A stretch of 43,446 nt of DNA, taken from JBMFOH01 sp049969715 [NCBI: bacterium] (GTDB lineage: Bacteria > DUMJ01). The position numbers and the translations under genes are program-made. The notes beneath the pieces are model-generated. The model ran no database searches, was not told where the DNA came from, and was given only the letters and a program-made list of their open reading frames with translations. The stretch covers positions 1 to 43,446 of the forward strand of contig JBMFOH010000006.1 in the NCBI GenBank assembly GCA_049969715.1, given 5' to 3'. Below are positions 25,237-36,474 of the stretch, piece after piece. How positions within the stretch are numbered: position 1 is the stretch's first letter; each line of letters starts with the position of its first letter.

Positions 25237-25913
25237 AATTCCCTTGGCAGCGAAGTCCACATATCCCAACGCAGTATGCTGTAATAGGGATAGGAAGATT
25301 TGGAACTTCTGTAGTAGAGACTTTGGTAGAGTTAGGGTATGAGGTTCTGGCAATTGACCCAGAGGAGAAGAATATTGCTCGAGTAAAGGATATTTCTACC
25401 TATTCAATTGTTGTAGATGTGACAAACGAAAAGGACCTCAAAGATGCAGGAATTTCTAATGTAGATGTAGCAATAATATGCCTATCTGATATAGAGGCAA
25501 ATATTTTAGCCACGCTGATAGTAAAAGATCTAGGGGTAAGGTATGTTATCTCTAGAGGATTAAATGACCAACATACAGAGATATTGAGACTTATCGGTGC
25601 AGATCTAGTTGTAACTCCAGAGAAGGAGATGGGGAGAAGGATAGCTCAGAGGATAGTTACCCCTGGGATAATCGATCTTATAGATGCTATGCCAGAGGCT
25701 AGACTCATAGAGGTTTCTCCTATCCCTGAGATAGTTGGAAAGAAGATCAAAGACCTTACTCTTTCTCATAAAGGTATCCTAGTTTTAGGGATAAAGAGGA
25801 ACGGAGATATAATAGTTGTTCCTGAGCCTGAGGAGACAATTGGATCTGAGGATAAGATATACCTCTTTGGAACTGCTGATGCTGTTAGTCCATTTTATAG
25901 TTTTGTGGTATAA
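25233..25913 (+). CDS. TrkA/KtrA-type potassium uptake regulatory subunit (second copy)
   Basis: The 226-residue RCK protein has RCK_N (GIGRFGTSV, then AIDPEEKN) at about 15-130 and TrkA_C at about 145-226. ATGA overlap with trkH implies coupled translation and a shared complex. A promoter for the next genes is embedded in its last codons. Whether it forms mixed octameric rings with the first copy or replaces it under other conditions cannot be told from sequence. Confidence 0.9.
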   Translation: MKFPWQRSPHIPTQYAVIGIGRFGTSVVETLVELGYEVLAIDPEEKNIARVKDISTYSIVVDVTNEKDLKDAGISNVDVAIICLSDIEANILATLIVKDLGVRYVISRGLNDQHTEILRLIGADLVVTPEKEMGRRIAQRIVTPGIIDLIDAMPEARLIEVSPIPEIVGKKIKDLTLSHKGILVLGIKRNGDIIVVPEPEETIGSEDKIYLFGTADAVSPFYSFVV

Positions 25914-25914
25914 T
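25906..25914 (+). promoter_or_regulatory. extended -10 promoter of the ECF-coaX unit
   Basis: TGGTATAAT matches the TGn-TATAAT extended -10 and overlaps the stop codon of the second trkA. There is no good -35; TTAGTC at 25885-25890 is the nearest. The predicted start near 25921 would begin the transcript two bases before the first leader hairpin. Confidence 0.7.
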
Positions 25915-25920
25915 AAGGAA

Positions 25921-26005
25921 AAGGCTTGCACTGAATAAGGCAAGACCATTTTTATTACTATAAATTTCGTCCGGTACCTTATCGGACTGGAACGGAGGTG
26001 TTTTA
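25921..26005 (+). promoter_or_regulatory. structured leader, candidate translational riboswitch
   Basis: P1 pairs 25923-25929 with 25940-25947 (seven pairs with a single bulged A at 25945) around a 10-nt loop. P2 pairs GUCCG (25969-25973) with CGGAC (25983-25987) around the 9-nt loop GUACCUUAU. The P2 loop bases ACCUU (25976-25980) can pair with GAGGU (25995-25999) in the Shine-Dalgarno GGAGGUG. The same loop, CCUUAU (25977-25982), is perfectly complementary to AUAAGG (25935-25940), which spans the P1 loop and its closing base. The two pairings exclude each other. It lies before a vitamin-type ECF transporter gene and coaX, so pantothenate or a CoA-pathway metabolite is the obvious ligand guess. 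No known riboswitch class was recognised by eye. Confidence 0.6.
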
Positions 26006-26689
26006 ATGCATATATCTAATAAAGAGATTGCTTTAGGGGGATTGTTTGGAGGTATTATTCTTTTATTAGGGTTTACCTATCTTGGTTATATACCTTTACC
26101 TACTCCTGCTGGTGCAGCTACTATTATGCATATCCCAGTAATAATAGCAGGGCTTATACTAGGTCCAAGGTTTGGTGCTATCGCTGGTACTCTATTCGGA
26201 GTCTCTGCCGTCTATTATTTCTTAAGTATAGCTCCTCCCTGGGTTCTTTTCCCTGCTAGACCTTTTATAGGAGTAGTCCCTCCTATAGTCTACTATTCTA
26301 TGGTAAAACTCTTAGAGAGGAAAGATGAAAGGTCTGTCAGATGGTTTTCTCTTGTCGTGTCTATCATCCTTTTGGGTATTACCTTAAGACTAAGTTATAT
26401 CAAATTAGGATTTGGTTTTTGGTTCATCCTTCTTTTCTTTCTCCTTCTTTTAGTCATAATCTTCTGGATAAGGAGTTCAGACCCTAGGATAGTTTCCCTA
26501 GCTGTAGCTTCCTTCCTAGGAAGTCTTACTAATACTGTTGGTACTTTAGGGCTGGCTGTGGTTTTTAAGATATTTCCTCTTTCTGCAGCTTTCTCTGTAG
26601 CTATTCTTCAGGGTATACCAGAGGCTCTTTTAGCAGTAATAATCTGTACACCAATAGTGATTGCTATTAACAGAAGGGTTAAGATATGA
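26006..26689 (+). CDS. ECF transporter S component, probably pantothenate (PanT-like)
   Basis: The 227-residue membrane protein with about six helices resembles S components of energy-coupling-factor vitamin transporters. The stretch PLPTPAGAATIMHIPVIIAG followed by LGPRFGAIAGTLFGV fits the family that includes PanT. Substrate assignment rests on the next gene, which encodes pantothenate kinase and overlaps it by 4 nt (ATGA). The ECF energising module (two ATPases and EcfT) is not in this window and may be shared. GGAGGTG lies 5 nt before the ATG, inside the structured leader. Confidence 0.8.
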   Translation: MHISNKEIALGGLFGGIILLLGFTYLGYIPLPTPAGAATIMHIPVIIAGLILGPRFGAIAGTLFGVSAVYYFLSIAPPWVLFPARPFIGVVPPIVYYSMVKLLERKDERSVRWFSLVVSIILLGITLRLSYIKLGFGFWFILLFFLLLLVIIFWIRSSDPRIVSLAVASFLGSLTNTVGTLGLAVVFKIFPLSAAFSVAILQGIPEALLAVIICTPIVIAINRRVKI

Positions 26690-27450
26690 TCGTTGCAATT
26701 GATGTAGGGAATACAAATATAGATGTAGCTTTCTTCCAGGGTTATAAATTAGTGAGGCATTTTGAATTTTCTACAAATATATCTGCTACAAGTTATGAAT
26801 ATGCGATAAATCTTTCTTGGTTGCTGGAGAATAATCAGCTAAGTACAGAAGAGATTGAAGGAGTTGCTATAGCTTCGGTTGTTCCGCCAGTAACGTTAGA
26901 GTTGGAAAGAGCAGTGAGATATCTTTTTGGAGCAAAGCCATTTATAGTCGCTCCTGGGATAAAGACGGGTATCGTTATAGACGTTGAAAATCCTAAAGAG
27001 GTTGGTTCAGACCTTATATGTAATGCTGTTGCCCTTGTGGAGGATTATAAAACATCTGGGATAGTCGTGGATTTTGGTACAGCTATTACTGTCTTGGGGG
27101 TAAAGGATAGGAAGATGTTAGGAGTAGCTATAGCCCCTGGAATATGGACAGCTAGCTCAGCTCTGTGGGAAAGAGCGGCTCGACTATCTCAGGTAGACCT
27201 TTTTATTCCCCCTGAGAGTGTACTAGGCAAGAATACTGTAACTGCTATGCAATCTGGGATTATCTATGGGTTTTCTGGTTTAGTGGATAAGCTTATTTCT
27301 CTGGAGCTAGAGGAAATGAATATTAATCCATTCGTTATAGCTACTGGAGGATGGTCAGAAAGGATAGCTAAATACTGTAGGATGGTCAATATTGTTGATC
27401 CATACCTTACTCTTAAAGGTCTCTGTAGACTGTATGTAAAAAATGTATGA
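26686..27450 (+). CDS. coaX: type III pantothenate kinase CoaX
   Basis: CoaX carries out the first step of coenzyme A synthesis, ATP-dependent phosphorylation of pantothenate. The 254-residue acetate kinase-fold protein has the N-terminal phosphate loop DVGNTN (6-11) and the second one DFGTAIT (129-135). The usual GADR motif reads GSDL (107-110): the catalytic aspartate D109 is kept but the following arginine is leucine. Overlap with the ECF gene suggests pantothenate is taken up and trapped by phosphorylation in one unit. Confidence 0.92.
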   Translation: MIVAIDVGNTNIDVAFFQGYKLVRHFEFSTNISATSYEYAINLSWLLENNQLSTEEIEGVAIASVVPPVTLELERAVRYLFGAKPFIVAPGIKTGIVIDVENPKEVGSDLICNAVALVEDYKTSGIVVDFGTAITVLGVKDRKMLGVAIAPGIWTASSALWERAARLSQVDLFIPPESVLGKNTVTAMQSGIIYGFSGLVDKLISLELEEMNINPFVIATGGWSERIAKYCRMVNIVDPYLTLKGLCRLYVKNV

Positions 27451-27498: not shown

Positions 27499-28746
27499 GT
27501 GGATGATAAAACCCAGAGATTAAAAAACAGATGGAGAGAGTCTGTCCTTCTTAGGAATATAGTTCTTCTCTATGCTGAAGTAGCCTTTATTGGTGTCTTG
27601 AATGGAACAATAGGAGTATACCTAGGTGTATTTGCTATAAGATTAGGGGCTTCCAATAATCTTATAGGCCTTCTCTCTTCATTGCCAGCTTTAATTAATG
27701 TTTTGTTGATGTATCCTGCTTCTCAGATTGTAAACAGCTGGCTTAATAAGATAGAGATCAACAAGTGGAGTTTCCTTTTTACAAGGCTTTTGTACCTGCC
27801 GCTTGCCTTTATCCCGTACTTTCCTAATCCTTCCCTTTTTATATTAATTATCGTTACTCTCCTAGCTATACCTGCCTCGGTAGCAAACATTGCCTTTAAT
27901 GTGATGTTTATAGAGTTGGTTCCTTCCTCTCTTAGAGCTACTGTAGTATCAAATAGGAATATGCTTGTTATGTTTATCCAGACCTTTTTTACTATAATAG
28001 TAGGTTACTTGCTCGATAGAGTAATTTTCCCTTTAAATTTTCAACTCGTTATGTTTATAGGATTCCTGTCAAGTATAATAAGCCTGTATCTTATGACCTT
28101 ATTAAGACCTATGAAGATGTCTCTTCCTTCTGAGAAAAGGGAACCTGTCGAATTATCTTCTATATGGACACAATTTAGAGATATATACTTCCTCTTTAAA
28201 GAAGATAGGATATTTATGAGGTATCAGATTGCTACATTTATATATTATCTAGGTCTATATGTCCCTATGCCTCTATTTTCGATAAGAATGGTAAGAGAAC
28301 TCCGTTTCTCGAACTTTGAAGTGGGGCTTACAAACACCTCTGGAGGATTAGCTACTGCTATTTCTTACCCCTACTGGGGAAGAGAGGGGAAGAAGCTTGG
28401 AATAAAGAAAACCCTTTTCTGGTGTAATATAGGAATCTCCTTTTATCCTCTCATATTTAGTCTTTTGAAGAGCCCTTCTCAGGTCGTCCCATTTTCTGCT
28501 GTTGGTGGTTTTTTTAGTGCAGGATTTAGTGTTTTTATATATATGGCTCTTCTTCTCTTTTTATCTCAAGAGAAAAGGGCAGAATATCTAGCAGTAAACG
28601 GTATTATTACAAGTATAAGCCTTACTATTGGACCTATCCTAGGGACACAACTCTCTAGAGTAATAGGAACAACTCCTGTGTTCTTTATTGGCACTGCTAT
28701 AAGGCTTATAGGAACGTATCTACTTTTAAAAACAATACCCAATTGA
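27499..28746 (+). CDS. MFS transporter of unknown substrate
   Basis: The 415-residue, 12-helix major facilitator has an N-terminal segment NGTIGVYLGVFAIRLGASNNLIGLLSSLPAL and a half-molecule repeat. It is not close enough to a characterised subfamily for a substrate call. It starts at GTG 27499 with no ribosome site and a -10 six bases upstream. It is monocistronic, and its stop codon directly abuts that of the convergent ahcY gene. Confidence 0.8.
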   Translation: MDDKTQRLKNRWRESVLLRNIVLLYAEVAFIGVLNGTIGVYLGVFAIRLGASNNLIGLLSSLPALINVLLMYPASQIVNSWLNKIEINKWSFLFTRLLYLPLAFIPYFPNPSLFILIIVTLLAIPASVANIAFNVMFIELVPSSLRATVVSNRNMLVMFIQTFFTIIVGYLLDRVIFPLNFQLVMFIGFLSSIISLYLMTLLRPMKMSLPSEKREPVELSSIWTQFRDIYFLFKEDRIFMRYQIATFIYYLGLYVPMPLFSIRMVRELRFSNFEVGLTNTSGGLATAISYPYWGREGKKLGIKKTLFWCNIGISFYPLIFSLLKSPSQVVPFSAVGGFFSAGFSVFIYMALLLFLSQEKRAEYLAVNGIITSISLTIGPILGTQLSRVIGTTPVFFIGTAIRLIGTYLLLKTIPN

Positions 28747-36390: not shown

Positions 36391-36442
36391 ACCTTCCTCC
36401 TTTTTAAGTGATATAATACTTTTGTATATTTTATCATAATAC

Positions 36443-36474
36443 CTGGGTGTGCGTAATATTCTACGCACACCCAG
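36443..36474. terminator. perfect 13-bp hairpin between the Spy-like and FAH genes
   Basis: CTGGGTGTGCGTA and TACGCACACCCAG are perfect inverted repeats around a 6-nt loop (ATATTC). The hairpin begins 7 nt after the Spy-like stop and ends about 50 nt before the FAH ATG. No T-run follows on either strand, so it may be a rho-assisted terminator, an RNA stabiliser that separates the expression levels of the two genes, or an operator. Confidence 0.6.

Follow-up and report, generated by a model that had tools for sequence, protein, structure and literature searches.

A tandem pan RNA predicted in the leader of an ECF transporter S component-coaX operon

Results

In the window (the whole 43,446-nucleotide stretch that was analysed, contig JBMFOH010000006.1 of the bacterium JBMFOH01 sp049969715), a leader of about 85 bases separates the end of a trkA-like gene (25913) from the start of a gene for the S component of an energy-coupling factor (ECF) transporter (26006), behind which coaX, encoding a type III pantothenate kinase, follows with a 4-base overlap (Table 1). 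Comparison with the Rfam model RF01749 and with homologous leaders identifies this leader (25921-26000) as a tandem pan RNA, a published orphan cis-regulatory motif. An earlier, sequence-only reading of the locus had proposed a structured RNA at this place and had been reminded of the pan motif. A structured and evolutionarily conserved leader is supported by the Rfam match, by a covariance model termed R3 and by covariation, and the comparison with pan was right: the match spans the whole of RF01749, and an orthologous leader scores above the gathering score of that family.

When the window is compared with Rfam at gathering scores, no family reaches its cut-off. With the threshold lifted, RF01749 matches the leader over model positions 1-92 with 30.5 bits (E 9.7e-4; gathering score 36.2), so the Rfam scan that the earlier reading had suggested returns pan from end to end, albeit with a window score under the cut-off. 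The orthologous leader of L003, which together with L001 and L002 makes up the three loci with the closest S component relatives (77 to 79% identity), reaches 42.3 bits. R3, from which the window and L001-L003 were excluded, was built on 55 further leaders (although on an alignment made with R1, a model from 8 leaders that had seen them) and scores the window leader at 56.4 bits (E 7e-11); its second-best match in the window (36394-36471, minus strand, 14.7 bits, E 0.42) is taken as chance, as is a match of the family sR4 in the leader stretch (10.5 bits, E 4.4). Among 60 homologous S loci scanned with RF01749, 21 carry, immediately before the S gene, a match that reaches or exceeds the gathering score; L008, one of the same 60, has such a match (36.4 bits) upstream of panB in its S gene row. 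We therefore reject a new riboswitch class, since RF01749 matches end to end and homologous S-gene leaders pass its threshold.

Of 80 homologous S loci, 70 have an R1 match at E<=1 and 61 have one at E<=0.01, 7 of these 61 having helped to build the model; nine of the 70 lie between E 0.016 and 0.25. Every R1 match is on the coding strand, with 5 to 53 bases between its end and the S-protein match. The ten loci without a match at E<=1 are L004, L006, L008, L012, L021, L024, L032, L039, L068 and L070; in four of them (L008, L032, L039 and L068) a pan or pan-like match lies at a greater distance upstream, ahead of panB or of an ECF module. Note that a genome search with the Rfam model, in which 150 candidates per genome were scored, missed the sites of L001 and L002, both of which R1 found, and that genome-search counts are thus lower bounds.

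Both hairpins carry the two bulged adenines that are characteristic of pan. In hairpin 1 these are A25930 and A25945, with inner pairs 25931-25939 and 25932-25938 and closing pairs 25923-25947 and 25924-25946. The earlier reading had drawn the stem from 25923-25929 and 25940-25947 with the bulge at 25945, which stands, though incompletely: the bulged A25930 and the two inner pairs had been omitted. Hairpin 2 pairs 25968-25975 with 25986-25994 (closing pair 25968-25994) and 25977-25978 with 25984-25985, its bulged adenines being A25976 and A25991 (or A25992). Searched for with a descriptor over both strands of the window, a tandem of such hairpins turns up once, at the leader; 20 one-strand shuffles gave two. 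The minimum-energy fold of the window leader contains both hairpins, with hairpin 2 extended by three pairs into the Shine-Dalgarno (SD) sequence. This fold is more stable than all 200 shuffles (z-score -3.38), as are those of L002 (-5.22) and L003 (-3.77), while 8 of 200 shuffles are as stable as that of L001 (-2.27). In the full-leader ensemble, six of the seven hairpin 2 pairs looked up have probabilities of 0.96-0.98 and the seventh, beside a bulge, 0.49; the SD bases 25994-25998 are unpaired with probabilities of 0.02-0.49. Upstream, the extended -10 element that the earlier reading had placed before the leader is confirmed, and L001-L003 have a similar element, TGN-TATNAT, at 10 or 11 bases upstream of the motif, compared with 6 in the window. 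A sigma-70 promoter scan of 25700-26100 that requires a -35 element returned no promoter.

Judged on the alignments, the pan stems are kept by compensatory base changes. Across 69 distinct leaders, aligned by fitting to the structure, 86.8% of cells are paired, as against at most 40.7% when partners are slid by 1 to 3 columns, and 19 of 21 pairs show two-sided changes. An alignment of 8 leaders that was not fitted to the structure gives 95.8% of cells paired (up to 45.2% when slid) and two-sided changes in 13 of 21 pairs. Over 71 leaders, the positions of A25930, A25945, A25976 and A25991 hold an adenine in 70, 70, 68 and 71 leaders, respectively.

The same alignments bear on a translational switch put forward in the sequence-only reading, in which the loop of a second stem, P2, pairs either with the loop of hairpin 1 or with the SD sequence. 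The letters of the window are indeed complementary: all five P2 pairs form in the window and in L001-L003, the six-base loop-loop complement is present in the window, and each of L001-L003 retains four of the five loop-SD pairs. The conserved fold, however, is pan hairpin 2 and not P2, in which two of the five pairs fail to form in 52 and 61 of the 69 leaders; P2 pairs in 57.6% of cells, compared with 54.9% in shuffles (0 of 500 as high) and up to 48.1% when slid. The loop-loop pairing retains only three of six pairs in each of L001-L003, stands at 45.1% over the leaders versus 46.2% in shuffles, and is about as complementary within a leader as between mismatched leaders. Loop-SD pairing is identical in leaders and shuffles (68.5% vs 68.5%), with two-sided changes in no pair. 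The covariation test that had been proposed thus retains hairpin 1, whereas P2 is mostly broken beyond L001-L003 and neither loop pairing is kept by covariation in relatives, close or distant. We reject the one-loop, two-partner switch, which on this evidence is extremely improbable.

A different alternative hairpin of 8 base pairs, specific to this lineage, contains P2 (25969-25976 with 25980-25987) and would break pan hairpin 2. In the isolated 27-base segment its energy is -10.0 kcal/mol versus -9.8 kcal/mol for pan hairpin 2 in the window, and -10.0 versus -9.9 kcal/mol in L001-L003. These hairpin energies were computed over 71 leaders (with a median of -3.1 kcal/mol favouring the alternative) and are used for the window and L001-L003 only, since the pan form was coded without the extra inner pairs of the others. 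With two folds nearly equal in the isolated segment, mutually exclusive folds are possible in this lineage, although not the pair proposed earlier. An effector might then choose between pan hairpin 2, with its SD-adjacent end paired, and the 8-bp alternative, with the SD end free; this would refine, for this lineage, the explanation that we prefer below. Besides the energies, it speaks for such bistability that GTCCGGTA-N3-TATCGGAC is identical in the window and L001-L003 save for one loop base. On the other hand, these are four related sequences whose invariance may reflect close kinship, the P2 part is mostly broken in wider relatives, and the two alternative pairs looked up in the full leader have a probability of 0.02. 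We regard a bistable hairpin as a tentative proposal and rather unlikely.

In 70 of 71 leaders the SD sequence comes directly behind the pair that closes hairpin 2, with a start-like codon 9 to 15 bases further on. Hairpin 2 abutting the SD sequence fits translational control, and the leader probably acts on translation. A terminator-like hairpin within 150 bases downstream is found after none of the 71 S-gene leaders but after 7 of 16 pan sites in other contexts (shuffled mean 0.15). The 16 stand ahead of synthesis genes or of ECF modules in Anaerolineae, and exclude the coaX-first and the four oligopeptide transporter (OPT) sites described below; one of the seven, in L088, is probably within coding sequence, and two belong to Anaerolineae sites that are nearly identical. 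Since terminator-like hairpins occur in the other contexts and not behind S-gene leaders, pan seems to be joined to both transcriptional and translational expression platforms, the window having a predicted translational one.

The genes downstream of the leader probably import and phosphorylate pantothenate (vitamin B5). For the S component protein, neither the NCBIfam search nor the search against solved structures returned a match, and pantothenate is its putative substrate on the strength of gene rows with panBCD and coaX: one homologue stands in the row panB-panC-panD-S-birA-coaX of L008 (Halanaerobacter jeridensis) and another, in L068, lies behind panB-panC-panD. After coaX, a major facilitator superfamily transporter gene (27499-28746), found in the same place in L001 and L002, may share the operon.

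Table 1. Features of the window leader and its operon, and pan sites before OPT genes in other loci (own coordinates of each locus)
Feature	Position	Strand	Basis
Extended -10, TG-G-TATAAT	25906-25914	+	Sequence; start predicted near 25921
Pan hairpin 1	25923-25947	+	Fold, descriptor scan, covariation, bulged-A conservation
Linker between hairpins, A/T-rich, variable length	25948-25967	+	Alignments
Pan hairpin 2	25968-25994	+	Fold, covariation, bulged-A conservation, Rfam pan alignment
Alternative hairpin, lineage-specific, would break pan hairpin 2	25969-25987	+	Isolated-segment energies
Shine-Dalgarno GGAGG	25994-25998	+	Sequence; first G is the closing base of hairpin 2
ECF transporter S component, putative pantothenate uptake	26006-26689	+	PF12822, 57 bits (cut-off 30.7)
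coaX, type III pantothenate kinase	26686-27450	+	PF03309, 194.9 bits; NF009855, 243.4 bits (cut-off 233); TIGR00671
OPT pan site, L154	3463-3556	-
OPT pan site, L163	3426-3509	-
OPT pan site, L114	1501-1585
OPT pan site, L125	1501-1597

Gene contexts of pan beyond the window were surveyed in 196 genomes of one class with R2, a model trained on, and hence biased to, S-gene leaders. The survey gave 69 sites in 65 genomes. For 68 of the sites the first recognised downstream gene is an S component gene in 58, a DUF2520 reductase gene in 3, panB, panC and coaX in 1 each, and none in 4; coaX occurs in the downstream stretch examined at 25 of the 58 S-first sites. At the four sites without a reference gene, a short open reading frame (ORF) of 7 to 24 residues (e.g. 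MIKFIFISN and MLKFIISS) directly follows the SD sequence, and behind it come an OPT gene (PF03169, 4 of 4) and a type II pantothenate kinase gene (PF03630 downstream in 4 of 4 genomes; NF009842 above its cut-off in L154). Among their pan sites only that of L163 falls short of the Rfam gathering score. We regard them as candidate operons for the salvage of coenzyme A (CoA) precursors with a possible leader peptide; import of CoA precursors is attributed to the transporter Opt1 in PMC12406275.

Further arrangements were met elsewhere. In the Anaerolineae loci L032 (124-4215) and L039 (207-4297), a pan-like RNA (36.0 and 33.0 bits, below the gathering score) and a terminator-like hairpin precede two ECF ATPase genes, EcfT, the S component and coaX. 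In L085 (gene at 1657-2526), L086, L088, L098 and L105, a DUF2520/Rossmann reductase gene, a candidate ketopantoate reductase gene, lies between the pan match, which in L098 is below the gathering score, and panB. By eye, L161, L163, L164, L165, L168, L172, L173 and L174 seem to have the second hairpin and the SD sequence only, and may be single-hairpin pan RNAs. A Clostridiales-2 RNA (RF02937) was also seen just downstream of the S gene in two related metagenome-assembled genomes (MAGs; L053 3822-3902 and L055 3822-3902).

In the window, the genes behind pan are those of the S component and coaX and not synthesis genes. The genomes of L001-L003 (G001-G003), which are all three genomes found for their phylum-level group, carry one pan site each as detected with R1, and searches for panB and panC gave no hit in them, an absence that is provisional as genome completeness is not given. 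With no synthesis gene hit, pan there would control uptake and kinase only. In the class survey, no panB hit was obtained in 39 of the 65 pan-positive genomes, which is provisional for the same reason.

Discussion

In this study we have placed the published pan RNA before genes of pantothenate uptake and phosphorylation. Taken together, its contexts suggest that pan governs the supply of CoA as a whole and not only the synthesis of vitamin B5. We consider it likely that the tandem pan RNA in the S-coaX leader responds to an effector signalling that CoA is sufficient, which closes hairpin 2 and represses both genes. This effector, a product of the CoA pathway or a protein reporting on it, would bind the bulged-A hairpins and hold hairpin 2 closed, blocking the ribosome at the S gene and, by coupling, at coaX. 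When CoA supply falls, hairpin 2 would open, perhaps into the 8-bp alternative in this lineage, and pantothenate uptake and phosphorylation would rise. That hairpin 2 controls ribosome access is supported by the anatomy of the leader, from which we infer rather than observe the effector and the direction of closing and opening.

As to the nature of the signal, we favour an end product of the CoA pathway. Two kinase families stand under pan together with uptake and synthesis, which argues for a signal arising after the kinase step; and since pan precedes synthesis genes, uptake genes and kinase genes, and uptake and kinase genes also in genomes without panB or panC hits, a downstream product is a better candidate than pantothenate. 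Pantothenate itself as the ligand, repressing uptake and synthesis, would agree with the recognised pan contexts, which have to do with supplying pantothenate or CoA. It explains poorly why pan also precedes two families of kinase genes (coaX, and the type II gene that follows OPT), as a substrate that represses its own kinase makes little sense whereas CoA repressing all these genes would. We therefore judge pantothenate an improbable ligand.

Several observations weigh against our preferred explanation or parts of it. The window leader scores below the RF01749 gathering score, and at that score the leaders of L001 and L002 do not appear either. In the unfitted alignment, one of five measures (further pair types) is no higher than in shuffles, 411 of 500 of which reach it. 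Adjacency to the SD sequence alone does not prove occlusion. The full-leader ensemble closes hairpin 2 without an effector, and the effector might therefore open it instead. Finally, hairpins as small and simple as these speak for a protein partner, a point already made by the discoverers of pan.

Such a protein would turn pan into the binding site of a dimeric regulator that reports CoA or pantothenate status, with one subunit on each bulged-A hairpin and the ribosome blocked, while the RNA itself would sense nothing. This overlaps with the explanation above, where the nature of the effector is left open, and we rate it as a serious contender at slightly less than even prospects; in our view a dimeric protein and a directly bound metabolite are about equally likely. 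The tandem arrangement and simple bulged-A hairpins point this way, as does the frequent proximity of coaX (25 of 58 S-first sites). CoaX is a dimer. As a universal RNA-binding partner, however, it is weakened, if not excluded, by the related MAGs G026 (L053) and G227 (L055), which have pan above the gathering score and gave no hit for a type III kinase; searches of both, which may be incomplete, gave no type II kinase hit either, and type I was not looked for. No partner gene was found for any such regulator, and sites that seem to have only the second hairpin are unexpected for a strict dimer site. A dimeric protein partner was proposed by the discoverers themselves (PMC2864571).

That paper (Weinberg et al. 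2010) described the motif, naming panB, panC and the aspartate decarboxylase gene behind it and Chloroflexi, Firmicutes and delta-Proteobacteria as hosts; Bacillus subtilis is among the species that have pan. Later papers again have pan before panB-panC and the aspartate decarboxylase gene (PMC5670726, PMC4342826) or record its detection with the gene unnamed (PMC4634765), and the texts of PMC7266159, PMC9481103 and PMC11477304 contain neither pan nor pantothenate terms. The window leader resembles these cases in matching the whole Rfam model, in its tandem form, which most members share, and in having pantothenate pathway genes downstream. It differs from the published contexts by the S component and coaX and by a hairpin 2 that runs into the SD sequence, and from the published hosts in that its close relatives belong to a phylum-level group for which three genomes were found, with no panB or panC hit. 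PanU, the S component of the ECF pantothenate transporter of B. subtilis (PMC11487621), resembles the window protein in its putative role; a search of the text of that paper found no mention of a riboswitch or RNA motif. In the open-licence papers searched we found no effector for pan since 2010 and no report of pan before an ECF or OPT gene. Like attenuators and SD-occluding riboswitches, pan is a single conserved RNA that is joined to terminator-like hairpins in some of its contexts and to the SD sequence in others; unlike them, it has no ligand that we found reported.

Two reviews count CoA among the ligands conspicuously without a riboswitch (PMC10043782, PMC9971707). A bolder and, in our estimate, unlikely proposal is that pan is the missing natural riboswitch for CoA or a CoA-pathway metabolite, with two expression platforms and a regulon that takes in synthesis, ECF uptake, the OPT transporter and both type II and type III kinases. 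Type III pantothenate kinases are described as refractory to CoA feedback, and the kinase of Staphylococcus aureus is of type II. A Staphylococcus aureus kinase is called refractory to CoA feedback in the title of a reference in PMC11487621.

The finding that pan often stands at pantothenate uptake genes and at two kinase families, including in genomes that gave no panB hit, shifts the choice of candidates for its effector: CoA, late intermediates and proteins present in auxotrophs come first, and pantothenate or the synthesis enzymes after them. The short translational pan leaders make easy reporter targets. Should pan prove to be a riboswitch of the CoA pathway, an RNA sensor would supply the CoA feedback that type II and type III kinases lack.
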